Shown: piece by piece, positions 8,622 to 25,757 of the stretch
Numbering within the stretch: position 1 is the first letter of the stretch
Layout of the letters: every line of letters starts with the position of its first letter
Assembly (NCBI GenBank): GCA_902533295.1
Contig: CACALG010000005.1
Span: 1-36,226, forward strand
Length of the DNA stretch: 36,226 nt
Direction of reading: 5' to 3'
From: an uncultured marine group III euryarchaeote
Lineage (GTDB): Archaea > Thermoplasmatota > Poseidoniia > MGIII > CG-Epi1
Program-made: the position numbers and the translations under genes
Notes under the pieces: model-generated
What the model saw: only the letters and a program-made list of their open reading frames with translations
The model's database searches: none
What the model was told of the DNA's origin: nothing

Positions 8622-11183
8622 TTGTCAAGTCCAGTGATGCGTCAGTACTACGCCATAAAACGTGAAAATCCAGATTCTATTCTCCTCTTTCGGATGGGGG
8701 ATTTTTACGAAACATTCGGTGATGATGCTGTAACTGTGGCAAAAGATCTGGATATTACATTAACAGCTAGAGATAAGAATTCTGACAATCCCATTCCTTT
8801 AGCTGGCGTACCATATCATGCACTAGATAGCTATCTTGGTAAATTAATCAAAAAAGGGCATCGAGTTGCAATTTGTGAGCAACTTGAAGATGCGAAAAGC
8901 TCCAAGGGAATCGTAAGAAGAGGAGTAACTCGAGTAGTAAGTCCTGGAACTGTAGTTGAAGGAACTATGCTAAGTAACTCCAATAATTTCTTAGCATCTA
9001 TAAATGAAACTGATGATGGACTGGGCTTAGCAATCATGGATATTTCAACTGGTGAATTTTCTACAGCCCAGTTCAGAGATAGAGAATCATTAGAATCTGA
9101 AATGATGAGATATGCTCCTTCAGAAGTAATCGTTCCTGAAGGAAATGAAAGTGTAGAAAATTGGATGAAGGCTATAGGTGTCAATATCACTCCCTGTAAG
9201 GCAGACTCGTGGATGTATCCTGTTTCCAAGAAAACTTTAGAAGAAAGATTTGGAAATGTTGAAGAATTGAAAACATACCCTATGGCTGTAACGGCTGCAG
9301 GTGCAATTCTCTCCTACGCAACTGATACTCAATTTAGTGATTTACCACACTTAAGACCGCCATCACTAATGGTTAAAGCCAAAACAATGACCTTAGATGC
9401 TGTAACTCTAAGAAATCTAGAGATTGTACGCACGATAAGCGATTCATCCAAAGATACTTTATTTGCAGTTCTAAACAAGAGCTCAACTGCAGGAGGTTCA
9501 CGAAGATTAAAGGACTGGTTACTTCGGCCATTGCATGATTTAGAAAGAATAAATGAAAGACATGATGCAGTAGAAGAATTATTCAAAAATACATTAAGTC
9601 GCAGAGAGATTAGAGATATTTTGAAAGGTTTCCAAGATGTTGAAAGATTACTGTCTAGACTGGGGCACGGTTCTATTTCTCCAAGAGATTTAGACAGTCT
9701 CAAAACGAGTCTAAGTACAGTAAAAGATCTAAAACAATTTCTAAGTGAAGAACCACTAAAATCAAAATTAATGAAGAAACTTGTAAAATCTATTGATGTG
9801 CACAAACAAGTTTCCAAAAAATTACAAGAGGCTATCGTAGAGGATCCGCCTCTTGTTCTTAGAGATGGTGGAATATTCAAGAAAGGATACTCAAAAGAAT
9901 TAGATGATTTAAGATCAAAAGCCACTAGTGGAAGAGAATGGGTTGCTTCATTAGAAGCTGAAGAAAAAGAAAAAACTGGTATTCCAAAGCTAAAAATTGG
10001 ATACAATCGTGTTTTTGGATATTATATTGAAGTTCCAAAAACATATGCAAAGAAGGTCCCAGAAAGTTATCATCGAAAACAAACTGTTGCAGCTGGTGAC
10101 CGATACATTACACCTGAATTAAAAGAGAAAGAGACTACTATTCTAAGAGCAGATGAGCGATCTCAAGCTCTTGAAGTTGAATTGTTCAAAGAATTGAGAG
10201 AATGGATTTTAGAATTCTTAGGATCTTTACAAGCAACTACTATGGCAATTTCCAGAATAGATGCAATTAGTTCACTCGCTGAAGTTAGTCAGACAAACAA
10301 TTATGTTAGACCTGAAATGTCCAATGATGGAACATTATCCATTTCTGACGGAAGACATCCTGTAATAGAAGTCCTTAGAGAAGGGCAATATATTCCTAAT
10401 AATTTACAGTTGGACAATAAACAAAGACAATTGATGATTCTAACTGGACCTAATATGGGTGGTAAATCTACCTACATGCGTCAGACTGCACTAATTTGTG
10501 TGATGGCTCAGGCGGGTTGTTTCGTTCCTGCTTCATCAGCAAGACTAGGAATGGTCGATCGTGTATTCACTCGCGTAGGTGCACACGATGACCTAGTACA
10601 TGGCCACTCAACCTTCATGGTGGAAATGCTAGAACTAGCAAACATTTTGAGAAATGCAACACCTAATAGTCTTGTACTACTAGATGAAATTGGAAGGGGA
10701 ACTTCGACTTTTGATGGTTTGGCATTAGCATGGGCAGTTTCAGAAGAATTGCATGCTGGTAAAGGTGTGAAAACGTTGTTTGCAACACATTACCACCAAT
10801 TGACTGATGTTGCAAAGATATTGGACCGATCAGTTAATTGTCATATGCAAGCTAAAGAAGATGGCCATGAATTAACACTACTACACCGAATTGCTGAAGG
10901 TCCAACAGACGCCTCATTTGGTATTCATGTAGCTAAAATGGCTGGTGTCCCTGAGGAAGTATTGGTAAGGGCCCGTAAAGTTTTGAACAATTTAGAAGAA
11001 GGTTCAACAATTGAAGTATCTAAAACTGGACCGGTTCAATCTGTTTTCAGCACTGATTTCGGTGCTAGAAGTCAAACTAAAGAGAATCCAATTGTAGATG
11101 AAATTAGAAAAATGGATTTGATGAATTTAACTCCTTTACAGGCACTAGAAAAATTACACGATATCCAACAGAAATTGCTCTAA
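8622..11183 (+). CDS. mutS: DNA mismatch repair protein MutS
   Basis: N-terminal LLFRMGDFYETFGDDA mismatch-recognition motif, Walker A TGPNMGGKSTYMRQ, LLDEIGRGTSTFDGLALAWA and ATHYHQL. TTG at 8622, or ATG at 8637. Confidence 0.97.
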   Translation: MSSPVMRQYYAIKRENPDSILLFRMGDFYETFGDDAVTVAKDLDITLTARDKNSDNPIPLAGVPYHALDSYLGKLIKKGHRVAICEQLEDAKSSKGIVRRGVTRVVSPGTVVEGTMLSNSNNFLASINETDDGLGLAIMDISTGEFSTAQFRDRESLESEMMRYAPSEVIVPEGNESVENWMKAIGVNITPCKADSWMYPVSKKTLEERFGNVEELKTYPMAVTAAGAILSYATDTQFSDLPHLRPPSLMVKAKTMTLDAVTLRNLEIVRTISDSSKDTLFAVLNKSSTAGGSRRLKDWLLRPLHDLERINERHDAVEELFKNTLSRREIRDILKGFQDVERLLSRLGHGSISPRDLDSLKTSLSTVKDLKQFLSEEPLKSKLMKKLVKSIDVHKQVSKKLQEAIVEDPPLVLRDGGIFKKGYSKELDDLRSKATSGREWVASLEAEEKEKTGIPKLKIGYNRVFGYYIEVPKTYAKKVPESYHRKQTVAAGDRYITPELKEKETTILRADERSQALEVELFKELREWILEFLGSLQATTMAISRIDAISSLAEVSQTNNYVRPEMSNDGTLSISDGRHPVIEVLREGQYIPNNLQLDNKQRQLMILTGPNMGGKSTYMRQTALICVMAQAGCFVPASSARLGMVDRVFTRVGAHDDLVHGHSTFMVEMLELANILRNATPNSLVLLDEIGRGTSTFDGLALAWAVSEELHAGKGVKTLFATHYHQLTDVAKILDRSVNCHMQAKEDGHELTLLHRIAEGPTDASFGIHVAKMAGVPEEVLVRARKVLNNLEEGSTIEVSKTGPVQSVFSTDFGARSQTKENPIVDEIRKMDLMNLTPLQALEKLHDIQQKLL

Positions 11184-11863
11184 CCTATACTAACGCTAAT
11201 CTTTTTTGAATTTGAATTGCCTTCAGGATCTTCTGCATATATCGTAAATGAATAGGAATCACTTTTGAGACCATTTTCAAAGTAATGATGATAGAAACTA
11301 CTGTCTGTTATATTGTATACATTATTATCTTCCATTTTAATCATAGGCTGAGAATTGAGACCTGCTGCTCCAGACGTAATAGTAACTGTTTCAACTTCCC
11401 AATTGTCTTTGACAGAAATTGCTAGAACAAAAGGTGTGTTTGCATCTATTTCTAGAGTTTCATTCCAAGAACCATCCATTTCGACATACAGTTCTACTTG
11501 CTGAAACTTAGGTTTAGCGATATCATTGAAAGGAGGATTTGATAGCAAAATCATAAATCCTAACCAAGCCATAAAAGACATGAACATTGGTCCAATCCAA
11601 TTCTTTCTCTCAAATTCGCTAGTATCAAAGAGTTGTGGAAGAACTTTGATTAGGCCAAAAGGAGCTACAAAACCAATAATTGTTGCCCAACTGCCAATAC
11701 CGGCCATTCTTACTAAAGAATAACAAATTACTGCAACGGCAAAAGCATAGAATACTGCAAAGAGAGTTACTTTAGAATCTCTAATCTCTTTAGTTCGATA
11801 TTCTTCTTTATTAAATTCAGGAAACTTGAAGGTTTCTTCACGCTTACCTTTTTTCTTGGCCAT
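11180..11863 (-). CDS. Conserved membrane protein, unknown function, with a C-terminal Ig-like/extracellular segment
   Basis: Several hydrophobic helices, then ETLEIDANTPFVLAISVKDNWEVETVTI...YAEDPEGNSNSKKISVSIG. Confidence 0.75.
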   Translation of the reverse strand: MAKKKGKREETFKFPEFNKEEYRTKEIRDSKVTLFAVFYAFAVAVICYSLVRMAGIGSWATIIGFVAPFGLIKVLPQLFDTSEFERKNWIGPMFMSFMAWLGFMILLSNPPFNDIAKPKFQQVELYVEMDGSWNETLEIDANTPFVLAISVKDNWEVETVTITSGAAGLNSQPMIKMEDNNVYNITDSSFYHHYFENGLKSDSYSFTIYAEDPEGNSNSKKISVSIG

Positions 11864-11923
11864 TTTGCTCTATAATGGAGGTTAAATAAAGCCCCGCGTG
11901 GACTCTAATACAGTTAGGAACAC

Positions 11924-13996
11924 ATGGCAACAAAGGAGAAAGGGGCCGAAGCAGAGATTGCTGAGGAGGAAAAAGAAATATTACCTGAATTAACGGGTAT
12001 GCCTATTGAAGTGCATTTTCGTAGACATTTTCGGTTCATATTGTTTATACTTTTTTGTCTATACTTAGGTTGGTACACTTTTGCTTTGATGCTCATTGCT
12101 TGGGTTACAGGAGTTCGATGGGCAGAGAATCAAGGCCATTTACAAAAATACGATATGGATCTAGTATGGGGTCGCTCTTTCCTTATGTGGAGAACCGATT
12201 GGGGCAAAGGCTTCATAGAAAAAATATCACAAAACAAACCATTTTGGAGAAGAGTAGGAGATGTTTGGGTTGTAACTGTTTTTGTGATAATGATCCTAAT
12301 GTTTTCATTACTGCTTTGGCAAGCTACTTTAGCTTGGCAAATACCTAAAACTTCTGCAGTTTCTCCAAAGATGATGATTGGGTTGCCTGGTGTGAACCCT
12401 GTAATTCCTCTCTGGTATGGTATTTTAGCTCTAGTAATCGCAATGGTCGTTCACGAATTTAGTCACGGAATTTTAAGTCGTGTAGCAGATGTTAAAGTCA
12501 AAGCCTTAGGATTGTTACTTTTCATTTTCCCTGTTGGAGCTTTTGTTGAACCTGATGAAGAAGAAATGAAATCCATGAAAAAATGGGAAAGAATGAGACT
12601 CTATGCAGCAGGTCCTGGAAGCAATATGGTAATTGCTGTGATTTTCTCATTCCTATTTTCATCTGTAATGGTTGCTTCTCTAGAGCCTGCGGAAGATGGG
12701 TTGCTATTGTACTCTGTAAGTGCTGATTATGGAGGTGCAGAAGCGGGACTTGAACCTTGGATGCTTCTTACATCTATAGATGATGAAGAAATCAGAAATA
12801 TTGATGATTGGCAGAATATTATGAATAATACATATGCAGGTCAAAGCGTTAATGTTTCAGTTCTAAATGCAGGGGAACCTGAAACTTACTCCGTTACTTT
12901 GTCTGATAAAGGGAGTTATTATCTGAAATATTATCCTGATGCGTACGAACCTTGGATGTCTGGAAAGGGATTCATGGGTGTTGCTGCTGAAAATCCAAAA
13001 TTTGTAACTAATAACCTTGCAAATCCAACCGAAAATATTCTACTTTACATTTCTTTACCTTTTGCTAAGCTACAACCATTCCCGGATCATTTTACTTCAA
13101 TTTTCGAACCTAGCGGAATGGTGGGTGCAATACCTGACAATTTATTCTGGATTTTAGCTAATTGTTTCTATTGGATTTTCTGGCTTAATTTGATGGTTGG
13201 ATTGACAAATGCTCTTCCCTCAGTACCACTTGATGGAGGATTTATTTTTGCTGATGGCGTTACAGGAATTCTCGACAAAATCAAAACTGGTTTGACGGAA
13301 CAAAGAAAAGAAGAAATTGTCGATAATTTAGTTGCTGTTCTGGCTTTTACCGTCGTATTTTTAGTCGTCTGGCAACTAGTAGGGCCAAGAATCGTTGGTG
13401 TTGATCCTGTAATACTAGATGCAAACATAAATGCAAGTGAAACTAGTGGCTGGAATGGTGATGTTTTTAATTTTGATGCATCCATGTCTAATGGTGATTT
13501 CGTAACTTACGAATGGGATTTTGGTGACGGAACCACAATAACTGGGGAAAGTGTGGAGCATTCTTGGACAGAGGGTGGATTGTACTTTGTTGTATTGACA
13601 GCAAAAGATGCAGAAGATAGGCAAAGTGTTGCATTTGAACAAGTAAGTGTCAATCATTTTGCTGAAGGTGATGGAAGTGTAGGTGGAGGTTCTGATGATA
13701 ATGTAATTGCTACTGTTAATCCATACATAGAAAATGTAAGTATTTACATTAGTATAACGGGAGATAGTGGACTACCATTTGTGGAATCAGACGTCACTGT
13801 CACAATCAATAATCCCTCTGGAACTGTTTTTGAACAAGACTTACTTCTTAGTAATGGAGAAACACAAGAGCTCACTTTCGAAACAAGTGAGGGTGAAATG
13901 GTTGGCGATTGGGAAATTAGTCTAGAATCTAATGATCCTGCTTCTGATTTCACTTATGATTATGATTGGTTCAATTATTACCAAGATAGTTCCTAA
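11924..13996 (+). CDS. Site-2 protease (M50) family membrane metalloprotease with PDZ-like region and C-terminal PKD-like domain
   Basis: HExxH in VVHEFSHGILSR, second motif NALPSVPLDGG, and PKD-type NFDASMSNGDFVTYEWDFGDGTTITGESVEHSWTEGGLYFVVLTAKDAE. Confidence 0.93.
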   Translation: MATKEKGAEAEIAEEEKEILPELTGMPIEVHFRRHFRFILFILFCLYLGWYTFALMLIAWVTGVRWAENQGHLQKYDMDLVWGRSFLMWRTDWGKGFIEKISQNKPFWRRVGDVWVVTVFVIMILMFSLLLWQATLAWQIPKTSAVSPKMMIGLPGVNPVIPLWYGILALVIAMVVHEFSHGILSRVADVKVKALGLLLFIFPVGAFVEPDEEEMKSMKKWERMRLYAAGPGSNMVIAVIFSFLFSSVMVASLEPAEDGLLLYSVSADYGGAEAGLEPWMLLTSIDDEEIRNIDDWQNIMNNTYAGQSVNVSVLNAGEPETYSVTLSDKGSYYLKYYPDAYEPWMSGKGFMGVAAENPKFVTNNLANPTENILLYISLPFAKLQPFPDHFTSIFEPSGMVGAIPDNLFWILANCFYWIFWLNLMVGLTNALPSVPLDGGFIFADGVTGILDKIKTGLTEQRKEEIVDNLVAVLAFTVVFLVVWQLVGPRIVGVDPVILDANINASETSGWNGDVFNFDASMSNGDFVTYEWDFGDGTTITGESVEHSWTEGGLYFVVLTAKDAEDRQSVAFEQVSVNHFAEGDGSVGGGSDDNVIATVNPYIENVSIYISITGDSGLPFVESDVTVTINNPSGTVFEQDLLLSNGETQELTFETSEGEMVGDWEISLESNDPASDFTYDYDWFNYYQDSS

Positions 13997-14062: not shown

Positions 14063-15163
14063 GTGAAACAATTAATGAGTAAAGACCCTGTTCCACTAAA
14101 AGCAGTACACCACATTGAATTCTGGGTGGGTAATGCGAAGCAGGCTGCATATTTTTACAGAAAGGCATTTGGATTTGACCAAGTTGCATATTCTGGTTTA
14201 GAAACAGGAAACCGAGATCGTGCTAGCTATGTACTGGAACAAGGAAGAATTAGAATGGTTTTTTCAACTCCTTTAAACAGTAACAATGGAATTTCTGAAC
14301 ACATCAAAGCTCATGGTGATGGTGTAAAAGATATTGCATTTCACGTAGATGATGCAAAAGCATGTTATGAAGCATGCGTTGCACGTGGTGCTAAAAGTGC
14401 AAGGGAACCTGAAGTAGTTAGCGATGAAAACGGTAGCGTAACTAAGGCTGCAATTTTCACTTATGGAGAAACAATACACTCATTTATTTCTCATGATAGT
14501 TACGAAGGGCCTTTTCTACCTGGATTTATAGAAAGAAAAGTTGAAGGTGATAGTGTCGGATTAAGATTTATTGACCATGTTGTAGGAAATGTGGAACTAG
14601 GTAAGATGGAACATTGGGTTAATTTCTATGCAGATATAATGGGTTTTTCACAAATACAAGCATTTAGTGATGATGATATTTCAACCGAATATTCTGCCCT
14701 TATGTCCAAAGTTATGGAAAGTGATAATGGAAGAATTAAATTTCCAATTAATGAACCTGCTGAAGGAAGAAAAAAATCACAAATTGATGAATATTTAGAA
14801 TTCTATCAAGGCCCAGGTGTACAACACATTGCTCTTCTTACAGACGATATAATCAAGGCAATAAATCGATTGAAAGAAAATGGTGTGGAATTTCTAGAAG
14901 TTCCAGATACCTATTATGATGATTTAACAGAGAGAGTTGGAGCTATAGACGAAGATATTGAAGTCCTAAAAAAGCTAAAAATTCTAGTTGATCGAGATGA
15001 TGAAGGATATTTATTACAGTTATTTACAAAGCCTGTAGAAGACAGACCCACTGTTTTCTATGAGGTCATACAGAGAAAAGGTTCAAGAGGATTTGGAATT
15101 GGGAATTTCAAAGCATTGTTTGAAGCTATAGAAAGACATCAAGCTGAAAGAGGAAATTTATAA
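14063..15163 (+). CDS. hpd: 4-hydroxyphenylpyruvate dioxygenase
   Basis: [53 protein letters not shown]; second half [14 protein letters not shown] and C-terminal [36 protein letters not shown] are characteristic of HPPD. Confidence 0.97.
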
Positions 15164-16347
15164 TGCACAGATATCACAAACTAGGAAAAGTAGCTAAAAA
15201 AAGACATACTGTCTTTAGAGATGATAATGGAAAAATATACCATGAAGAATTGAAAGGAAACAAAGGTTTCGTAGGACCTTCTTCCCTTCTTTATCATATC
15301 TATCCACCAACTGAAGTCCTATCAACAAAATCTATTGGAAGTTTTGACATAGAAGAAGATGATGATAAATCTCTGAGAATGAGACATTTCTACTCTAATA
15401 GGGCAAAAAAAGGAGGAAGTGCAATAATGGATCGTACTCCTTTCCTTTTCAATGATGATGTTGTCATGATGATGGCTTATCCTGATAAGAATGATGATTA
15501 TTACTATAGAAATGCTCAGGGAGATGAAATTGTTTACGTTAGCCAAGGAAGTGGTGTTCTAGAGAGTGCTTTTGGAAATCTAAAATATTCGCAAGGTGAT
15601 TATCTTGTAATTCCAAGAGGAATTTTACATAAATATGTTATGAATGATGAAGAACATACACTTCTAATCGTTGAATCACCAAGTGAAGTAAGAACTCCAA
15701 GAAGATACAGAAATGAATATGGACAAATAATTGAAAGAAGCCCATACTCAGAAAGAGATTTTAGAGCTCCTGATGAACTAGTAACATATGATGAAAAAGG
15801 AGAATTCAAAGTTGTTGTTAAGCAAAGAAATCTGTTTACAGAAGTAACACTAGGCCACCACCCTTGTGATGTGGTTGGTTGGGATGGATTCTACTATCCT
15901 TATGCATTCAGTATTCATGATTTTGAACCAATCGTTGGTAGGATACATGAACCACCGCCCGTTCATCAAACATTTGCTGGAGATAGATTTGTTGTATGTT
16001 CATTCTGTCCAAGGCCATTTGATTTTGATGAAAATGCAATACCTGCACCATACAACCATTCAAATGTTATGTCTGACGAAGTGATTTATTATGATTCAAA
16101 AGAATTTATGTCTCGTAAAGGTGTTGAGTTTGGTTCAATGACGTTACATCCTGATGGATTAACACATGGCCCTCACCCTGGGAAATATGAAGGTTCCATA
16201 GGTGCAAAATGGACTGATGAATTGGCCGTCATGGTAGATACTCATTATCCTCTGAAAGTTGCCAAACCTGCACTAGGTGTTGAAGATCCGGATTACGCTA
16301 AATCCTGGTTAGACGGTGAAGGTTACAAAGAAGCACTAGGCGAATAA
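15163..16347 (+). CDS. hmgA: Homogentisate 1,2-dioxygenase
   Basis: HRYHKLGKVAKKRHTVFR...DEIVYVSQGSGVLESAFGNLKYSQGDYLVIPRGILHK...WDGFYYPYAFSIHDFEPIVGRIHEPPPVHQTF...SMTLHPDGLTHGPHPG. Overlaps the hpd stop in a TAATG. Confidence 0.96.
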   Translation: MHRYHKLGKVAKKRHTVFRDDNGKIYHEELKGNKGFVGPSSLLYHIYPPTEVLSTKSIGSFDIEEDDDKSLRMRHFYSNRAKKGGSAIMDRTPFLFNDDVVMMMAYPDKNDDYYYRNAQGDEIVYVSQGSGVLESAFGNLKYSQGDYLVIPRGILHKYVMNDEEHTLLIVESPSEVRTPRRYRNEYGQIIERSPYSERDFRAPDELVTYDEKGEFKVVVKQRNLFTEVTLGHHPCDVVGWDGFYYPYAFSIHDFEPIVGRIHEPPPVHQTFAGDRFVVCSFCPRPFDFDENAIPAPYNHSNVMSDEVIYYDSKEFMSRKGVEFGSMTLHPDGLTHGPHPGKYEGSIGAKWTDELAVMVDTHYPLKVAKPALGVEDPDYAKSWLDGEGYKEALGE

Positions 16348-16349
16348 AG

Positions 16350-17360
16350 TTGATGAAAGAAAGTCTTCGAACTTTCATGGATGGTCTGATTGATTACGCA
16401 GGTCTATTTCCTCCAGCTGATTTACCCTTGAATGAAGCCATAAACGAATATGTTACACAGGTAAAAAGTGATAATTCTCAAATGTTGAGTCGTTTCATAA
16501 TACATACTTCAAAATTGAATGAATTAGATGAATTTTTGCCTCTTTTCAAAGATATTGGGGCCCTGAAATTATCTGTTCTTGGTGGCGGCGGAAATAGTGA
16601 CGACGAGTATTTAAAGAAAATTGACCAAAATATTGCTGATATCCATGGTTATAGAGAAAAACATGGTGAAAAAATCGAAATTGACGTTATCGAATGTAAA
16701 ATGGCATCAAATTCGCCCTCAAAAAACACTATGGAGAAGGCCACCGATTCACTTAATAAAAATGGATTGACACATTATCACGAATTTGCTGAATTGCCAC
16801 CTGTTGGAATGAATTATTCAACCGAAATAGATGACAGTTCTTGGGATAAAGAAATTTTACCAACTGTAGAATTACTTTCCAAACTCGATAATGCAGGAAT
16901 AAAACTAAGATGTGGTGGAATAATCAAAGAAGCATTTCCCTCTGTAGAACAAGTAGCTGCTATGATACAAACTTGTGTTATTGTCGGTATTCCAATGAAA
17001 TTTACTGCTGGTTTACATCATCCAATACGCCATTTTGCAGACGAATATGATGAATATATGCATGGATTCATCAATACTTTTGGTGCTGGAGTCTTTGCAA
17101 CTACTTTCCCTAAGCCAAAAAATTCTCAAGAAAAGTATAAAATGTTTATTTTGTTATCCCATATGATTGATGATCAAAATGCCGAAAATTTTAGCTTTGC
17201 TAATGATTCTATGACTTGGAAAGTGGGAGATGACCGAGACACGCAATTCGAAATTGATGCGGAAACAATTGAAAACGCCCGCAGAAATGGTATGATTTCA
17301 TACGGCAGTTGCTCTTTTCAAGAGCCTATAGATGACTTAACACAATTAGGATGGATGTAA
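16350..17360 (+). CDS. Conserved protein of unknown function embedded in the homogentisate operon (possible enzyme)
   Basis: ORF in a tight operon between hmgA and fah; DYAGLFPPADLPLNEAI, IKLRCGGIIKEAFPSVEQVAAMI, IPMKFTAGLHHPIRH and SYGSCSFQEPIDDL look like conserved motif blocks. Confidence 0.85.
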   Translation: MMKESLRTFMDGLIDYAGLFPPADLPLNEAINEYVTQVKSDNSQMLSRFIIHTSKLNELDEFLPLFKDIGALKLSVLGGGGNSDDEYLKKIDQNIADIHGYREKHGEKIEIDVIECKMASNSPSKNTMEKATDSLNKNGLTHYHEFAELPPVGMNYSTEIDDSSWDKEILPTVELLSKLDNAGIKLRCGGIIKEAFPSVEQVAAMIQTCVIVGIPMKFTAGLHHPIRHFADEYDEYMHGFINTFGAGVFATTFPKPKNSQEKYKMFILLSHMIDDQNAENFSFANDSMTWKVGDDRDTQFEIDAETIENARRNGMISYGSCSFQEPIDDLTQLGWM

Positions 17361-18640
17361 TGGACGAAACACACGATTCAAAGTTAAAATCATGGGTAAA
17401 TGTTGCTGAAGATTCCGATTTCCCGATTCAAAACATTCCCTTTGGAGTGTATTCTCCAAAAGGTGGAGGAGACTTACATGTTGCTACAGCAATCGGAAAT
17501 TATGTTCTAGATTTGGCGTATTTAGATGAAGCAGGTTGTTTTGAAGGAACTGAAGTAGAAGGAACTGAAGTTTTCCATGAGCCTACTCTAAATGCCTTCA
17601 TGTCTTTAGGTCGTAAAGCTTGGAAAGAGGCTAGAAAAGTAATCAGTAATATTCTAAATGAAAATAATGATACACTAAGAGAGAATGATGAATTGAAGGA
17701 TTTGGCTTTGATCTCAATGGAAAATGCTGAAATGGAATTTCCCGTTGATATTGGAGATTATACAGATTTCTATTCTTCAAAAGAACACGCTTCTAATGTC
17801 GGCACTATTTTCAGGGGACCTGAGAATGCATTAATGCCTAATTGGTTACATTTACCTATTGCTTACCACGGCAGAGCGTCTTCGGTTATTCTAGATGGAG
17901 GAGATATTATACGTCCTAAAGGTCAAACAAAAACACCTGATGCTGCAGGACCTTCTTTCGGTGATAGTAAAAGAATGGATTTTGAACTTGAAATGGGATT
18001 GTTTATAGGTCCTGGAAATGGTTTAGGAGAACCTATCACTGTTAATGGTGCTGAAGAACATATCTTTGGTATGGCTCTTGTAAATGATTGGTCGGCTAGA
18101 GATATTCAAGCTTGGGAATATCAGCCACTGGGGCCTTTCTTAGCTAAGAATTTAGCCACTACAATTTCTCCTTGGATAATAACACTTGAAGCATTAGAGC
18201 CATTTAGATGTAGTGGGCCCAAACAAGACCCTGAACCTCTTGAATATTTGAGAAACAATAAGGATAGTACGTTTGATATTAACCTAGAAATTCATTTGAA
18301 AACTGAAAGGATGGATGCCTATGATTTGATTTCGTCAAGTAACTACAATTATCTCTACTGGGATATGAATCAACAAGTGGCACATCATACTACTACTGGT
18401 TGTAATCTGAGAACCGGAGACATGTTGGCTAGTGGAACTATTTCTGGGCCTGAGAAAAATAGTAGAGGGTCAATGCTCGAATTAACGTGGGGTTGGTCTG
18501 AACCAATTAAACTTTCAAATGGTGAAGAAAGAATTGCCCTTGAAGATGGAGATACTGTATTGTTGAAAGGCTGGTGTCAAGGTGAAGGATATCGGATTGG
18601 TTTTGGAAGCTGTACAGGCAAACTTCTACCCTCTGCTTAA
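17360..18640 (+). CDS. fahA: Fumarylacetoacetase
   Basis: FPIQNIPFGVYSPKGGGDLHVATAIGNYVLDL...DYTDFYSSKEHASNVGTIFRG...LPIAYHGRASSVI...VNDWSARDIQAWEYQPLGPFLAKN...GWCQGEGYRIGFGSCTGKLLP. ATG at 17360 overlaps the upstream TAA (TAATG); the ORF track start is 17351. Confidence 0.97.
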   Translation: MDETHDSKLKSWVNVAEDSDFPIQNIPFGVYSPKGGGDLHVATAIGNYVLDLAYLDEAGCFEGTEVEGTEVFHEPTLNAFMSLGRKAWKEARKVISNILNENNDTLRENDELKDLALISMENAEMEFPVDIGDYTDFYSSKEHASNVGTIFRGPENALMPNWLHLPIAYHGRASSVILDGGDIIRPKGQTKTPDAAGPSFGDSKRMDFELEMGLFIGPGNGLGEPITVNGAEEHIFGMALVNDWSARDIQAWEYQPLGPFLAKNLATTISPWIITLEALEPFRCSGPKQDPEPLEYLRNNKDSTFDINLEIHLKTERMDAYDLISSSNYNYLYWDMNQQVAHHTTTGCNLRTGDMLASGTISGPEKNSRGSMLELTWGWSEPIKLSNGEERIALEDGDTVLLKGWCQGEGYRIGFGSCTGKLLPSA

Positions 18641-18669: not shown

Positions 18670-18691
18670 CCATCCGAGTGGCGCCCAGTCC

Positions 18692-18710
18692 GTCTCCTGT
18701 TAGAGGAGAC
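18692..18710 (+). promoter_or_regulatory. Perfect 7-bp inverted repeat GTCTCCT-gttag-AGGAGAC, candidate 5'-leader hairpin of the STT3 mRNA
   Basis: Read directly; about 25-30 nt downstream of the TATA-like element and 18 nt before the ATG at 18729. Confidence 0.5.
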
Positions 18711-18728
18711 AGAAAGGACACAACATCA

Positions 18729-21700
18729 ATGGCAAGACAAACACGTCGAAGACGTGACTCCAAGTCAAAAAATCGCTATCGCCCTCGCTTCCCTTCAGCT
18801 TCAGGTAGAGCAAGTTCTGAACAAACTGAAATAGCGCCACGCAAAGTTGAAAAAATTGATTGGAGAACTGTTTTTATTTTGTTTGCAATTTTCCTTTTTT
18901 CCCTTTATATTAGAACTGCTTGGACGTTAGAACCAGCCACAGAGGATGGATTTCAACTTACTGGAGGTAGTGACCCTTACTACCACAAGCATGTTGTTGA
19001 CCACGTAGCTGAAACTGGTGAGCATTTGAAAAGAGATCCAATGCTTAACTATCCTTATGGAGCAAATAACAATCGACCACCTTTATTTGATTGGTCTATT
19101 GCAATTATTGGTTTAGCACTTTCACCATTCTTTAGTTCAACAGAGGAATCTGTATGGTGGGCAATGGAAGTTTTGCCTGCAATTTATGGAGCTTTAATCA
19201 TATTCCCAATTTACGCAATAGGTCGAGCTCAGTTTGGAAGGGAAGCTGGAATAATTGGAGCTTTCTTTATTGGTGTAAATTCACAACATGTAGGTCACTC
19301 AAGTTTGGCTCTGGCTGACCACGATTCTTACATTATTCTGTTTGGAACAACTGCTTATTTCTTCTTCATGAGGGCATTAACTGTTGCTAACGATAAGAAA
19401 TGGGTGTCTGATTGGACTAATTGGGATGAAATAAAGAGTGGTGTAAGACAATTTGTAGATTCTGAAAGATTAGCTCTTGGTTATGCTGGTTTAGCTGGTA
19501 TGACAATAACTATGATTTCAATGAGTTGGAAAGGTTTCCCATACATTATGGCAATCATTGCAATTTATTTGGGATTACAGATGTTAATCAATGCTTTCCG
19601 TAGAGTAGATAGTTTGACCACGGCCGCCCTAGGATTGGTTACACTTTCAATGCCTGTAATTTTGTCTTATCCTTATTACAACACCATGGGATTCGTGAAT
19701 ACATGGTGGGAAGCTCCTGCATATATTTTGCTAGGTTACTTCCTAATTTCATTACTAATGGTTACAACCAGAGATTTACCATGGTTATTAGTGATTGGTG
19801 TGTCTACTGGTATTGCAGTAATTATTTACTTGCTTCTTACTTATGTTTTTGAAGATCTTGGATTTTTACTCTTTAGTGGTCAAGGATACTTTGTCAGAAC
19901 AAAATTGTTCAATACAATTGCAGAAGCTCAGCCCCCTCAATTTGCTGATTTCGTTTTTGCTTTTGGTCCTGTCTCAATTTGGTTAGCTATATTCGGCGTT
20001 ATATGGATGGCTTACCAACTATTCAATCAGAGTATTTGGAAGAAAGATTATTTGTTCGTTATGATTTGGGCTCTTGTTTCAATTTACATGGCTCAATCAG
20101 CTATTCGTTTTATTTTTAATGCAACTCCTGTTGTATCACTTATCAGTGGATGGATAACTTGGTTGATAATCCAACAAGCCGATTTCCCTGCTATAATGGT
20201 AACTTGGAAAGCATTCTGGGGGAAGAGAGGTGGAACATTCTATTGGTTATCACTAGCATCGGTTTTTGCAGGATTATTCTTGTTCTTTACTGTAAGTATT
20301 CTAATTGGTCTTCTTTCAACTTTAATTCTCCTTCTATTGGTAATGGTTATTGGACATATGGATGCTCAAAGCGAGGACCAATATCGTTTCCGTGATAGGA
20401 TAAGAGGATTAAGACAAGGATTTGCTATGAAAAGGCCATTAATTGCTCTATTTGTTGGTCTATTCATCTTCCTACCAAATACTTTCTATGGATATGATGC
20501 TGGGGTTCCATTTGAAGATAAGAAAAGTCATGATTCAGAAATTTACGAATTTCTAAGTTATGATTTTTTAAGACCTGAAGAATATGATTGGGACGAACGA
20601 AATAATCAAACCAAATATCCAGATGGTGTCCAAGGAATGTATACTACCTCTGATAATTCTAATCAATTATGGTACTTGGGCAATACTGGGCCTTCATTCC
20701 CTCAAGACTATTGGATTGATGGATTGGAATGGTTAGCTGAACAAGACACAAATGAGAAACCTGAGGATCGGCCTGGCTTCATCTCTTGGTGGGATTACGG
20801 TTTCTGGGCAATCGATATTGGGGAACACCCTACTGTAGCTGATAACTTCCAGTTTGGATACCAAATTGCAGGTAATTTCATTGCTTCTCAATCCGAACAT
20901 GAAGCAATGGCTTTGTTACTCTATAGACTAATAGAACCTGAAGTCAATCGAGATTCAGAAAGTTTTAGTGATGAACTCAGAGCTGAATTATTATTATATT
21001 TATCAGAAGATAATGTTACAGAATTGGAAACAATAATCTCCAATCCTGACGATTATATTCCAAAGAAAGCAGATGGTAGTGATCAAGAGGTGCACCCGAA
21101 AAATGCTGCAATAAGAGCTGGAAGGCCAATTCTAATGACTATCGAGAAGAATGATATTGCAGACCTTATGTGGGAAGTGGAACAAATAACTGGTCACTCT
21201 ATCCGTTACTTTGCTGCAGATACAAGGCTAATGCCTTACTCTGCAAGTAATACTGGTATTTTGTACGCTCCAGTTACTTTGGCTGACTATGATATCAGTA
21301 ATTATGTAGAAGTTCAAGCTGCTTTATCAAACGGACAAACGGTACCATTTGATGAAGCAATAGAAATATTGAAAGCTAATCCAGATGTTCAAGTTTCTTC
21401 ACAGCAACTAGTTTACAAAGATAAATTTTTGAATTCAATGTTCTTTAGATCCTTCCTTGGATGGTCTGCAACAGATATTGGTAGACCAATAGAAGATGGA
21501 ATTCCTGGCGTATCTGGAACAATAGCCCAGGATCAAACACTACCTCCGCTACCTGGATGGAATTTAACTCACTTCAAATTGGTGCAATATAATTCCGGAC
21601 TCAGAATACTGAAATATTACGATGGTGCGACGGTTTATGGTACCGTTTCTACTCCTGAAGGAGACCCTGTTGTTAATGCAAACATAACTGTACTTGATGA

Positions 21701-24700
21701 ATATCGAGTTCCTCATGGAAGAGCAACAACTGATGAAAATGGACAATATAGTGTCTTGGTTCCTGCAGGAAATCTAACTCTGGCTGTTTCAATGGGAACT
21801 CCTGGAGAAGATATTGAAAAGATATTCATGACTTCGAACAATTTGCTAGTTAGAAAAGAAAATGTAATTATTTCTGAAGAACAAGCAATGAGAAAAACTA
21901 GTGGAGCAATAAAAATAGATCTTGAAGTCGAACCTGCGTCCGTGTCAGGTAGATTGTTCTGGGATAACAACAAAGATGAAACCTTTGATTCTGGTGATGA
22001 TACTGTACCTCTAATCCCAGTAACGGCAACAAATATACGCTCCGAAATTACTAGAACAGTTACAACTGATTCAAATGGTAATTATGAATTTACCGGATTG
22101 GCACCTGGTGAATACAAAATCACTGCTGAAATGGATGGGCACTCATTAGAATTAGCTTCATACACAGGTGAAGCATCATTACGAGCAAACCAAGACGTTA
22201 CTGTTAAAGGTGCTCTAAAACCAAGTTATATTTGGGGCAGAATTACCTCTGGAGATAATATCGGCTCACAAATCGTCACTATTTCACTTCACGATGAAAC
22301 TAACAGTAATATTACAGAAAATTCATTCCTTAACACCTATTATTACGTATCCGATTGTACTGGAGACGCCATAGATTCCTCAATATCATTCTGTTTTGAT
22401 AAACTATTACCTGGAAACTATACGCTTCGGTTTGAATCAAACGATATCTACACTGGTTGGACTAATAATACCAAAGAAGTAGAAATTGTAGCAGGACAAT
22501 CAAAAAGCTTCAACACCACTTTATTGAGCGGATTCCGATTAGAAGGTGTATTGAATCACAATAATCAACCTATTGCTAATGAGCAAATTGTTGTGAGGAA
22601 TGTGAATGAACAATATAGTGACAATGTATTCACCACAGATACTGGATACTTTGCGACCGTCCTTCCTAAAGGAATTTACGATATTTACACGGTTCACAAT
22701 ACTGAACAAACGACCCTAGCATATCTTAACCGAATAGATAGTCAAACTTATTCAGGAATAATAGATGCTAAGATGGGGCCTGGATACACAATACAAGGTA
22801 CTTTGTTTGAAGATTTAGATGGTGACAATGTATTCAATCCAGATACTGGAGAGAAAACATATAATGGAAAAATGGTTAGGTTTATCTCAGATAGTGGTAG
22901 TACTTCTGTAACTTCTACATTTGGAGGAAATTACGAAATTATTGTGCCTGAGGGGGCTTATAGTGTATATTCTCATGTTCTAGCAGATGGTCAACAAAAT
23001 TTGGTTTCTTTACGCAATCTTGGTATTGTTAACGGAAATCAAGAAAATGTTAATTTATCTGCAAATATAGGATACGATGCTTGGATTATTTTATATGAAG
23101 AACATATGGATGAAGTAATCAGCTTGGAAGGTTTAGTTGAATTGAGCACTGCCCAAGGTGAAATCGATGTTTGGGCAACTGATCCATTCTCTAAATTTAG
23201 TCTGCCTGGTGGAGAATACCAAATTGATTTGAATAAATTTGGATATGAATTAGAGAAAATTTATTACGGTCCTGAAGAAGAAAAGGAAGAAACGGAAAAG
23301 GTAACGTTAACAAAAACAGAAGAATTAATTTTACAAGCTAAAAGAATTCCAACAAATATAGATGGAAGATTTGTATATGAAGGAAGTCCGATACCTAATG
23401 CTCACTTATCTTTCTCACCAATGAATAATCCATTGTATCACTTAAATTTTACAACTGACGACCAAGGTAATTTCGAAAATGTAATTTTACCTCCTGATCA
23501 ATACATGTACACTTTCTCTCTTGAGGATAGTGGAAGTAGATATCTGAATCATGGACAAATGAATATTCCTATCGGAACGACTGAAGTAGACATGGGAGAT
23601 ATTGCTTCTGATCTTAAGTATCAAGTTTCTGGTGAAGTCACATTAAATGATGTAAAAACAACAGGTATGGTTATTCTAAGGCCTGTTGATGATTTTGATA
23701 ACTTTACTGTGCTCGAAACTACAGTGTTCGAAGATTATTCTGGCTATATGCTACCTGGTGAATATTACGTTACTTTCCAAGATGGACAATATGGTAAGCA
23801 CTACAGTTATGGTGGTTTCTTAGATTTGACAGGTCCTACAACTTATGATCTTGAATTGAAAAATGAAGGATATGTAAGAGGAGATGTAAGATCTCAAGCT
23901 GATAATAACATAATTACAGACAGACCGATTAGAATTCAATTTGTATCTGAAACTGGTGTTGTATTTGTAGAAGATTCTGATCCTGAAGAGGGGTTATTCG
24001 GAGCAACTATGAATTATGGTAAATTTGATTTGCCTAATGGTAATTACGACGTGATTGTAAAAGAAAATGGATATCAAGATTTTGCAAGCACGATTACAAT
24101 TGATGGATCTACGGACTATTACAATGAAATTGTATTAATTCCTAAGACTGTGAATGTTACTTTGGAAATGACTTATGTTAATGCAACTGGAAATAGTGTT
24201 CCTTTAGCTAATGGATTAGTTACTTTTGAAGCTGTTACTGGTGAAACATTCGGCCATTATACTGATGAAAATGGAGTAATTAACATTCCTGATATGGTTC
24301 CAAAAACCTATGAAATAGAAATGGATGTTACTCTAAATGATGGTGCTGATGAATTCACAATGAGTAAGAGAAATATCTATGTAAGTGCTGGTAATGAACA
24401 ACAAACATTCAAGAAAGAGGCTGAATGGAAAGTTCGAGTATCTGGTACTATCTTCTATGACCGTGATTTTGATGGAACTCCTGATTCTAATGAATTGCTT
24501 GCAAATTCGCAAGTGGATATTTGGAATGTGGATGGTACACAAATTAGAGAAAGCACAACTGCGGATTCAAATGGAAATTACGAAGTTTATTTGGATACTG
24601 GAGTGTACAAGACATGGTTCTACACTACAGAAGGAACAAGTTACACTTCCATAGATTCACTTGAACTAGAGGGAGCTCTAGAATTAAGTCCTGCACTATC

Positions 24701-25757
24701 GCGTGGTGTTAACTACATTGTAGACTATCAATCATCAGAAACAAACTCCAATATTGATTTTGGTGATGTAGATATTGTAGGAACTAATGTTAGCTTCACA
24801 ATCGAAGCTGATAATGGGAACATGGAAATTTTGGTTCCAAATGGCGTCTATGAATTCAAAGGAAATTATGAAGATTTATCTGCAACTGAGGATTACGCTT
24901 ATGTATTAGATATATCAGTTAACATAACTGACGATATTGACGGTGTAGTTCAGGTAGAAAGTATTGATAAGCAATTAATGAGAGGGTTTGACGTTTCATT
25001 AGATACAAACGAGTTAGAAATACCTATTAGTCAAACAGCTATTTTCAATTTCAATGTTACATCATCTGGTTTCTTAGACATTGTTTTTGAAACAGGAATA
25101 GAAGAGATTCCTGAAGGATGGAGTGCCGAATTTGTACCAAATAAATTGAACATGAAAGAAGGCGAAGAAGATAATCTCCAACTGAAGATAACGCCTAATG
25201 AAAATGTAGTTCCTGGTGTTTGGGAAGTATTCTATGTCGAAATCTTCTGGACAGACTACGAAGATAATCAAATCGATGATTTAAGACGTAATTTTGCTGT
25301 AACTGTTGAACCTATTGAACAACCTGATCCTGACTTCACAATAGAAACTGGTGATTTTGTTTGGAATCCTGATGCACCTACTGTTGGAACTGAAGTGACA
25401 TTAAGTGCAACTGTGACGAACGCAGTTAATCACTCAGGTGCCCATTATGTTCCTGTTGTCTTTTATGTCGATGATGAACCAATAAAGATGATTACTGCTG
25501 AGTTTGATGGAAATAACAGTGAAGTCACTGTTAGTGCCACTTGGAATGCTACAAAGGGTACACACACACTTAAGGCACATATAGACCCTGAGAACGCCAT
25601 AGAAGAGACTAATAGCGATAATAACAAGGCATCAACTACTTTCTCAATAAGTGAATCTGAGGAAGAAGATAACAGTTCTACTATGAACATGATTGCTATA
25701 GCTGTAGTAGCTCTCGTAGCTGGTTTTGCATACGTAAGTTATCGTTCTAGGCGTTAG
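18729..25757 (+). CDS. aglB: STT3/AglB oligosaccharyltransferase with very long C-terminal extension of CarboxypepD_reg/SdrD B-like repeats, CARDB-like domain and C-terminal TM anchor
   Basis: STT3 signatures GGSDPYYHKHVVD, ALADHDSYIILFGTTAYF and WWDYGFW; then ~1375 aa with repeats such as GRLFWDNNKDETFDSGDD...TTDSNGNYEFTGLAPGEYKITAEM; CARDB-like DPDFTIETGDFVWNPDAPTVGTEVTLSATVTN...AIEETNSDNNKASTTF; terminal TM NMIAIAVVALVAGFAYVSYRSRR. Start set to ATG 18729 because the ORF-track GTG (18678) lies upstream of the predicted TSS. Confidence 0.92.
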   Translation: MARQTRRRRDSKSKNRYRPRFPSASGRASSEQTEIAPRKVEKIDWRTVFILFAIFLFSLYIRTAWTLEPATEDGFQLTGGSDPYYHKHVVDHVAETGEHLKRDPMLNYPYGANNNRPPLFDWSIAIIGLALSPFFSSTEESVWWAMEVLPAIYGALIIFPIYAIGRAQFGREAGIIGAFFIGVNSQHVGHSSLALADHDSYIILFGTTAYFFFMRALTVANDKKWVSDWTNWDEIKSGVRQFVDSERLALGYAGLAGMTITMISMSWKGFPYIMAIIAIYLGLQMLINAFRRVDSLTTAALGLVTLSMPVILSYPYYNTMGFVNTWWEAPAYILLGYFLISLLMVTTRDLPWLLVIGVSTGIAVIIYLLLTYVFEDLGFLLFSGQGYFVRTKLFNTIAEAQPPQFADFVFAFGPVSIWLAIFGVIWMAYQLFNQSIWKKDYLFVMIWALVSIYMAQSAIRFIFNATPVVSLISGWITWLIIQQADFPAIMVTWKAFWGKRGGTFYWLSLASVFAGLFLFFTVSILIGLLSTLILLLLVMVIGHMDAQSEDQYRFRDRIRGLRQGFAMKRPLIALFVGLFIFLPNTFYGYDAGVPFEDKKSHDSEIYEFLSYDFLRPEEYDWDERNNQTKYPDGVQGMYTTSDNSNQLWYLGNTGPSFPQDYWIDGLEWLAEQDTNEKPEDRPGFISWWDYGFWAIDIGEHPTVADNFQFGYQIAGNFIASQSEHEAMALLLYRLIEPEVNRDSESFSDELRAELLLYLSEDNVTELETIISNPDDYIPKKADGSDQEVHPKNAAIRAGRPILMTIEKNDIADLMWEVEQITGHSIRYFAADTRLMPYSASNTGILYAPVTLADYDISNYVEVQAALSNGQTVPFDEAIEILKANPDVQVSSQQLVYKDKFLNSMFFRSFLGWSATDIGRPIEDGIPGVSGTIAQDQTLPPLPGWNLTHFKLVQYNSGLRILKYYDGATVYGTVSTPEGDPVVNANITVLDEYRVPHGRATTDENGQYSVLVPAGNLTLAVSMGTPGEDIEKIFMTSNNLLVRKENVIISEEQAMRKTSGAIKIDLEVEPASVSGRLFWDNNKDETFDSGDDTVPLIPVTATNIRSEITRTVTTDSNGNYEFTGLAPGEYKITAEMDGHSLELASYTGEASLRANQDVTVKGALKPSYIWGRITSGDNIGSQIVTISLHDETNSNITENSFLNTYYYVSDCTGDAIDSSISFCFDKLLPGNYTLRFESNDIYTGWTNNTKEVEIVAGQSKSFNTTLLSGFRLEGVLNHNNQPIANEQIVVRNVNEQYSDNVFTTDTGYFATVLPKGIYDIYTVHNTEQTTLAYLNRIDSQTYSGIIDAKMGPGYTIQGTLFEDLDGDNVFNPDTGEKTYNGKMVRFISDSGSTSVTSTFGGNYEIIVPEGAYSVYSHVLADGQQNLVSLRNLGIVNGNQENVNLSANIGYDAWIILYEEHMDEVISLEGLVELSTAQGEIDVWATDPFSKFSLPGGEYQIDLNKFGYELEKIYYGPEEEKEETEKVTLTKTEELILQAKRIPTNIDGRFVYEGSPIPNAHLSFSPMNNPLYHLNFTTDDQGNFENVILPPDQYMYTFSLEDSGSRYLNHGQMNIPIGTTEVDMGDIASDLKYQVSGEVTLNDVKTTGMVILRPVDDFDNFTVLETTVFEDYSGYMLPGEYYVTFQDGQYGKHYSYGGFLDLTGPTTYDLELKNEGYVRGDVRSQADNNIITDRPIRIQFVSETGVVFVEDSDPEEGLFGATMNYGKFDLPNGNYDVIVKENGYQDFASTITIDGSTDYYNEIVLIPKTVNVTLEMTYVNATGNSVPLANGLVTFEAVTGETFGHYTDENGVINIPDMVPKTYEIEMDVTLNDGADEFTMSKRNIYVSAGNEQQTFKKEAEWKVRVSGTIFYDRDFDGTPDSNELLANSQVDIWNVDGTQIRESTTADSNGNYEVYLDTGVYKTWFYTTEGTSYTSIDSLELEGALELSPALSRGVNYIVDYQSSETNSNIDFGDVDIVGTNVSFTIEADNGNMEILVPNGVYEFKGNYEDLSATEDYAYVLDISVNITDDIDGVVQVESIDKQLMRGFDVSLDTNELEIPISQTAIFNFNVTSSGFLDIVFETGIEEIPEGWSAEFVPNKLNMKEGEEDNLQLKITPNENVVPGVWEVFYVEIFWTDYEDNQIDDLRRNFAVTVEPIEQPDPDFTIETGDFVWNPDAPTVGTEVTLSATVTNAVNHSGAHYVPVVFYVDDEPIKMITAEFDGNNSEVTVSATWNATKGTHTLKAHIDPENAIEETNSDNNKASTTFSISESEEEDNSSTMNMIAIAVVALVAGFAYVSYRSRR

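Follow-up and report, generated by a model that had tools for sequence, protein, structure and literature searches.

The window analysed here is the whole 36,226-nt stretch. Its forward strand carries one uninterrupted frame of 2359 codons (18678-25757), and residues are numbered throughout from the GTG at 18678. Met18 (ATG at 18729) was invariant across 21 homologues and is therefore the probable start of a protein of 2342 aa, which confirms the single long ORF reported in a preliminary description of this DNA. By public names (94% identity to an ALOHA MGIII genome) the host belongs to Marine Group III (MGIII), not to the Poseidoniales implied by the comparison suggested in that description. 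A tyrosine/homogentisate degradation cluster (14063-18640; HPPD-like, homogentisate dioxygenase-like, unknown ORF and fumarylacetoacetase) ends 37 bp before the frame. The fumarylacetoacetase gene also directly precedes STT3 at two other loci (L109 and L121), and at both it lies beside a counterpart of a 336-aa ORF with no Pfam match that is found inside the cluster in the window (16350-17360). Further upstream (11180-13996), a reverse-strand gene encoding an EMC6_arch-like membrane protein adjoins a forward-strand gene for an M50 site-2-type protease with PKD and MG2 domains.

The product of the long gene begins with a motif-complete AglB/STT3 oligosaccharyltransferase (OST), continues through 12 transthyretin-like beta domains into CARDB, and ends with a membrane anchor (Table 1). 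Pfam models for STT3, AglB_core-like, CarboxypepD_reg (four stretches), SdrD_B, SpaA, PEGA and CARDB matched the protein, and hydropathy placed the anchor at residues 2335-2353. This agrees with the domain order proposed earlier, in which an STT3 with WWDYG was followed by prealbumin/CarboxypepD_reg, SdrD_B and CARDB domains and a second membrane anchor.

Table 1. Features of the giant STT3 gene (residues counted from the GTG at 18678)
Feature	Residues	Position in window	Strand	Basis
Whole gene		18729..25757	+	Probable start ATG = Met18 of longest frame; 2342 aa + stop; single open frame
STT3/AglB transmembrane (TM) region	48-600	18819..20477	+	PF02516 above cut-off; AF2 pLDDT 84, Z 36 to A. 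fulgidus AglB 3waj
First acidic motif, GSDPYYH	97-103	18966..18986	+	Asp99 invariant
Second acidic motif, ADHDS	213-217	19314..19328	+	Asp214 and Asp216 invariant (31-row set)
TIAE (TIxE motif)	413-416	19914..19925	+	Thr413, Ile414 and Glu416 invariant
Soluble AglB core after TM region, DK/DM-type motif near D848	600-974	20475..21599	+	PF22627 AglB_core-like above cut-off; VIA alignment
WWDYG catalytic signature	704-708	20787..20801	+	Invariant in 31 homologues
Transthyretin-like domain 1, counterpart of A. fulgidus AglB-L P1 unit	975-1082	21600..21923	+	Structural alignment to AglB-L
Transthyretin/CnaB-like domains 2-12 (extra chain)	1085-2103	21930..24986	+	CarboxypepD_reg and related models in all 34 relatives; AF2 pLDDT 86
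Further beta domain	2104-2217	24987..25328	+	Weakly like partner's first domain
CARDB domain	2218-2319	25329..25634	+	PF07705 47.1 bits, cut-off 22.7; partner profile match
C-terminal TM anchor and short basic tail	2335-2359	25680..25754	+	Hydropathy; found in long forms phylum-wide

In the catalytic part, PF02516 scored 33.0 bits (curated cut-off 24.5) and the AglB core model 29.5 bits (cut-off 27), and the acidic motifs, TIxE and WWDYG showed little or no variation among 31 relatives. An AlphaFold2 (AF2) model of residues 48-1190 (pLDDT 84, pTM 0.75) aligned with the solved A. fulgidus AglB (3waj) with a Z score of 36.1 and an rmsd of 4.2 over 652 residues. Against TIGR04154, the archaeosortase-associated STT3 subfamily, the protein scored 228.6 bits, under the curated cut-off of 450, and it was not assigned to that subfamily. 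The window enzyme is a complete, probably active OST.

The start of the extension had been placed at 21630, which is the exact start of the first CarboxypepD_reg match. When the window protein was compared with AglB/STT3 proteins, including the 868-aa AglB-L of Archaeoglobus fulgidus (PDB 3waj/7e9s), the TM fold, the motifs, the soluble core and a P1-like terminal beta domain all aligned, over window residues ~66-1082. Residue 1035 of the AF2 model (window residue 1082) paired with AglB-L residue 868, the last of that protein. Because the domain at ~975-1082 lies opposite the C-terminus of AglB-L, it corresponds to that protein's published P1 unit (PMC3703281), and the non-AglB part begins near 21930. 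AglB-L stops at P1, whereas ~1,270 further residues of the window protein supply another 11 beta domains, CARDB and a second anchor, and residues 1085-2359 have no counterpart in any solved AglB. HMM scanning and AF2 prediction of the extension bore out the string of domains read earlier from the sequence, giving Pfam matches and a chain of beta domains at pLDDT 86. Single domains matched transthyretin-like, CnaB and SdrD B domains with Z scores of 10-11. In single-domain fold (Z ~10) and in its matches to Pfam SdrD_B and SpaA, the window protein resembles the CnaB/SdrD_B pilins and MSCRAMM adhesins of Gram-positive bacteria; unlike these, it is archaeal, OST-fused and membrane-anchored.

Searching the PDB with a profile of the extension returned NOMO2 of the BOS complex (9c7v) as the best match (E 1.9e-37), followed by SdrD (1.9e-11), and a full-length profile found NOMO2 at E 1.2e-33, ahead of solved AglB. 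NOMO consists of 12 Ig/prealbumin-like domains with a single TM and a short tail (PMC12262048, PMC11186639), and has been proposed to tether parts of the translocon (PMC11169918). The window extension has a similar build, with ~12 transthyretin-like domains in the AF2 model, one C-terminal TM and a short tail. It shares with NOMO, a component of the BOS complex of the eukaryotic multipass translocon, a common domain family, an approximately equal number of tandem lumenal or extracellular domains and a single C-terminal anchor. NOMO is a separate protein, whereas the window chain is not a stand-alone protein with an N-terminal signal peptide, being fused in one frame to the catalytic OST subunit. 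The Pfam model NOMO_5th scored 24.8 bits with the full protein and 30.3 bits with the extension alone (cut-off 27) and matched 28 of 34 extensions (E 0.01), and the Pfam EMC7 beta-sandwich matched 12 of the 34. Since the NOMO profile match falls in several different registers and CarboxypepD_reg fits better than the NOMO model in Pfam, we claim from these comparisons a common domain family and a similar build only. Orthology to NOMO is not claimed for the same reasons, and because a single-sequence phmmer search with the extension found no NOMO. Among the matches listed by Foldseek/VIA NOMO was likewise absent, an absence that says little.

The preliminary description implied that such an extension was rare. 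Our surveys of the order, class and phylum indicated that it is routine in Thermoplasmatota, the phylum covered here, for which A. fulgidus AglB (lengths 868, 591 and 593 aa; PMC3703281) and a Halocatena plasmid STT3 (912 aa) were the only outside comparators. In the window's order, an STT3 match was found in 18 of 21 genomes, and nearly all frames were 2,290-2,375 aa long. The class yielded matches in 230 of 243 genomes, with frames of ~2,300-2,375 aa in MGIII and mostly ~3,120-3,280 aa in its two other families. Most families sampled across the phylum had frames of 1,850-2,740 aa. Shorter frames of ~1,170-1,430 aa occurred in families f5, f14, f27 and f32, where the four that were fully read had no C-terminal anchor; short frames were checked one by one only at two loci (L122 and L123; N run, contig end). 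Relatives outside MGIII were mainly Methanomassiliicoccales, DHVE2 and other Thermoplasmata. A search of the open-access literature found no description of this architecture.

These surveys also produced observations on individual groups and genomes. In STT3 proteins of Poseidoniales (L124-L134; ~3,120-3,250 aa), WWDYG lies near residue 930-1000, not 700, and 13-20 hydrophobic segments were predicted versus 8-13; these proteins seem to have an extra N-terminal membrane region ahead of STT3. A public record titled Flavobacteriaceae bacterium TMED121 (L171) holds an MGIII STT3 gene with 66% identity to that of the window, and the bin looks mislabelled or mixed. One draft carries an identical 2375-aa STT3 frame on two contigs (G004:C9 and G004:C30), probably an assembly duplicate.

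The extension was co-linear between the window and families f8, f35, f16, f24, f7 and f29 (E 1e-41 to 1e-51), and the best co-linear pairs in other families spanned roughly 1,050-1,350 residues. The long form is under purifying selection: comparison of the window with locus L120 gave a dN/dS of 0.07 for STT3 and 0.08 for the extension. In a tree built on the STT3 part, with the 912-aa haloarchaeal STT3 as outgroup, the long forms grouped almost together and mid-length forms adjoined them; the L077 row of this tree, with a branch of 9.4, is artefactual, and two second copies from f19/f21 sit on long branches. The long form may have been gained once, or it may have been lost in the mid-length group; both histories are possible.

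In most long-form lineages except Poseidoniia, a gene directly 3' of STT3, most often with a 4-bp overlap, encodes a partner protein of ~255-270 aa with a signal peptide, an Ig-like domain, CARDB, an anchor and a basic tail. By position and length we recognised 45 such ORFs, with spacings mostly of -4 to 0 bp. A downstream partner was present in 50 of 98 long forms, 45 of which had no partner-like C-terminal module. The other 48 had no downstream partner, and 39 of these carry the CARDB-anchor module of the partner as their own C-terminus. The window belongs to this second set, with the partner profile matching residues 2240-2359 (E 2.3e-14). Within the window genome the STT3 C-terminus was the top partner match (E 4.9e-14; next 3.8e-8), and it was the genome-wide best match in G000, G001 and G013; in G273 it was outscored by other CARDB proteins. 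In locus L111, the region equivalent to window residues 2104-2217 gave a weak match to positions 30-130 of the partner profile (i-E 0.037). It is on balance likely, on this evidence, that the partner has been fused to the arm in the window's lineage; we do not treat the fusion as certain, because CARDB-anchor modules are common in these genomes.

Profile searches of the PDB and Pfam with the partner gave CARDB proteins and generic Ig matches only, and we rejected its identification as TRAP or another known OST subunit. Reports of OST1 and OST3/6, which are likewise anchored, non-catalytic partners of STT3, are confined to eukaryotes, TACK and Asgard (PMC11417166); unlike these subunits, the Thermoplasmatota partner is a CARDB protein, and no similarity to them was detected. 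Since those subunits are reported elsewhere only, this small anchored protein would be a new candidate OST accessory subunit. In the Poseidoniales loci L124-L134, STT3 is followed by a conserved gene (~390-430 aa) whose C-terminal HDxxxGYGxL(N/D)A motif resembles the terminal part of a subtilisin-type protease.

The preliminary description counted 19-20 sequons after WWDYG and suggested that the enzyme may carry its own acceptor. There are 20 in the window, and the count in the extension showed no excess over chance (17 observed versus 16.8 expected from composition-shuffled sequences). We therefore set aside sequon abundance in the window as evidence, and replaced it with conservation and comparison across lineages. 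Across MGIII, sequon Asn residues were kept in 73% of cases versus 41% for other Asn (p 1e-4, a value inflated, as are the z values, by the relatedness of sequences within each group). The observed/expected ratio in the extension was 2.40 in Poseidoniales, 2.19 in family f25, 2.09 in other long forms and 1.41 in MGIII, and it was 2.77 in the partner; a reversed-motif control gave 0.5-1.2. In the motif-less family f15 described below the ratios were 1.21 and 1.09. The suggestion of a self-carried acceptor thus gains indirect support from conserved sequon positions in MGIII, from an enrichment of 1.4-2.4-fold where the active site is intact and from the loss of the excess in the motif-less family. 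This supports glycosylation of the arm and the partner in lineages with an active enzyme, most likely, for the arm, by its own enzyme. At L148, L150 and L249-L255 the second acidic motif (DHD) is replaced, by GRMHT in f25 and ANYLS in f6, with WWDYG and a TIxE-like motif kept. Since sequons stay enriched in f25, the enzyme of that family probably works with an altered site.

Family f15, which probably lies within Methanomassiliicoccales, includes 12 loci (genera g45, g70 and g81) from which the catalytic motifs are almost wholly gone; for example, WWDYG has become WIDYV or WYGYT, ADHD has become GNEY, and TIxE is absent. One f15 genome (G333) retains the catalytic motifs. The motif-less frames are ~1,820-2,010 aa long and keep the C-terminal anchor, and a partner-matching gene comes next in every locus with a readable downstream frame. 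Values of dN/dS in the STT3 region were 0.10-0.12 in g70 pairs, within an overall f15 range of 0.10-0.14. Searching the f15 genomes with PF02516 revealed no further strong STT3. The retention of extension and partner gene supports a role for both that is independent of catalysis, and is consistent with the scaffold role offered earlier as an alternative to the acceptor.

The reading that we favour, with a probability of roughly 0.58, is that of an active single-polypeptide OST bearing a glycosylated, doubly anchored accessory arm with a scaffold role beyond catalysis. The catalytic part would be an ordinary AglB, and the C-terminal half a covalently attached accessory arm that leaves P1, extends outside the cell through ~11 further transthyretin-like domains and CARDB, and returns to the membrane via its own anchor. 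The enzyme bearing this arm would most likely glycosylate it. As has been proposed for NOMO with its 12 domains, the arm probably serves as a holder or scaffold at the secretion/OST site, and its two anchors would keep secretory clients or translocon partners beside the active site. The partner protein is predicted to bind the arm: in most other Thermoplasmatota the arm would be paired with the downstream-encoded Ig-CARDB protein, and in the window's lineage the module is probably fused.

The main rival, which we regard as unlikely, is a structural surface element (an S-layer substitute or stalk) anchored via the OST, with catalysis and stalk merely physically linked. In its favour, pilins, adhesins and MSCRAMM B domains resemble the single domains in fold, and SlaB, the stalk protein of the Sulfolobus S-layer, aligns with one multi-domain stretch (Z 10, rmsd 14.5). 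The S-layer is absent in most cultured Thermoplasmatales, and Cuniculiplasma has no S-layer and keeps AglB (PMC5155288); the retention of the arm in motif-less f15 would fit a structural element as well. However, one protein per OST seems too few for a coat, and the linkage to the OST is kept phylum-wide. We consider it less probable still that the extension is mainly a cis acceptor, glycosylated to protect the OST and holding no partners. Enrichment of sequons where catalytic motifs are present, with none in motif-less f15, and conserved sequon positions in MGIII would follow from this; but sequons may be general to secreted proteins, and f15 keeps both extension and partner under purifying selection without the motifs. 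Lengths that range from ~1,170 to 3,280 aa over the phylum might reflect a generic repeat array lengthened by drift and serving no particular function, but this is very improbable given co-linear homology, dN/dS values under 0.1 between MGIII pairs, and conservation of both the C-terminal anchor and the linked partner. Lastly, an assembly artefact or frameshift joining two genes, which the preliminary description had raised and to which a 65% complete draft of 59 contigs might seem open, was refuted by the order, class and phylum surveys, in which a similar frame occurs independently in most genomes, including single-contig ones.

Beyond the accessory-arm reading that we favour, a broader proposal is more tentative. 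Thermoplasmatota may possess a two-component OST, consisting of a giant STT3 with a NOMO-like arm and a genetically coupled Ig-CARDB partner in the membrane, that evolved separately from the TACK, Asgard and eukaryotic subunits; in one methanogen-related family arm and partner together might serve secretion or the envelope in a role that has outlived glycosylation, leaving STT3 as a pseudoenzyme.

If true, candidate OST accessory machinery would for the first time be placed outside the TACK/Asgard/eukaryote line, and it would be made by fusion and not from separate subunits. It would physically link an OST to NOMO-type domains; in eukaryotes these domains belong to a translocon variant other than the one that contains the OST. 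The motif-less f15 proteins would represent a natural separation of catalysis from scaffold, and their comparison with active relatives could reveal non-catalytic roles. Marine Groups II and III are widespread ocean archaea, and in sea water the enzyme may therefore commonly take the giant form.
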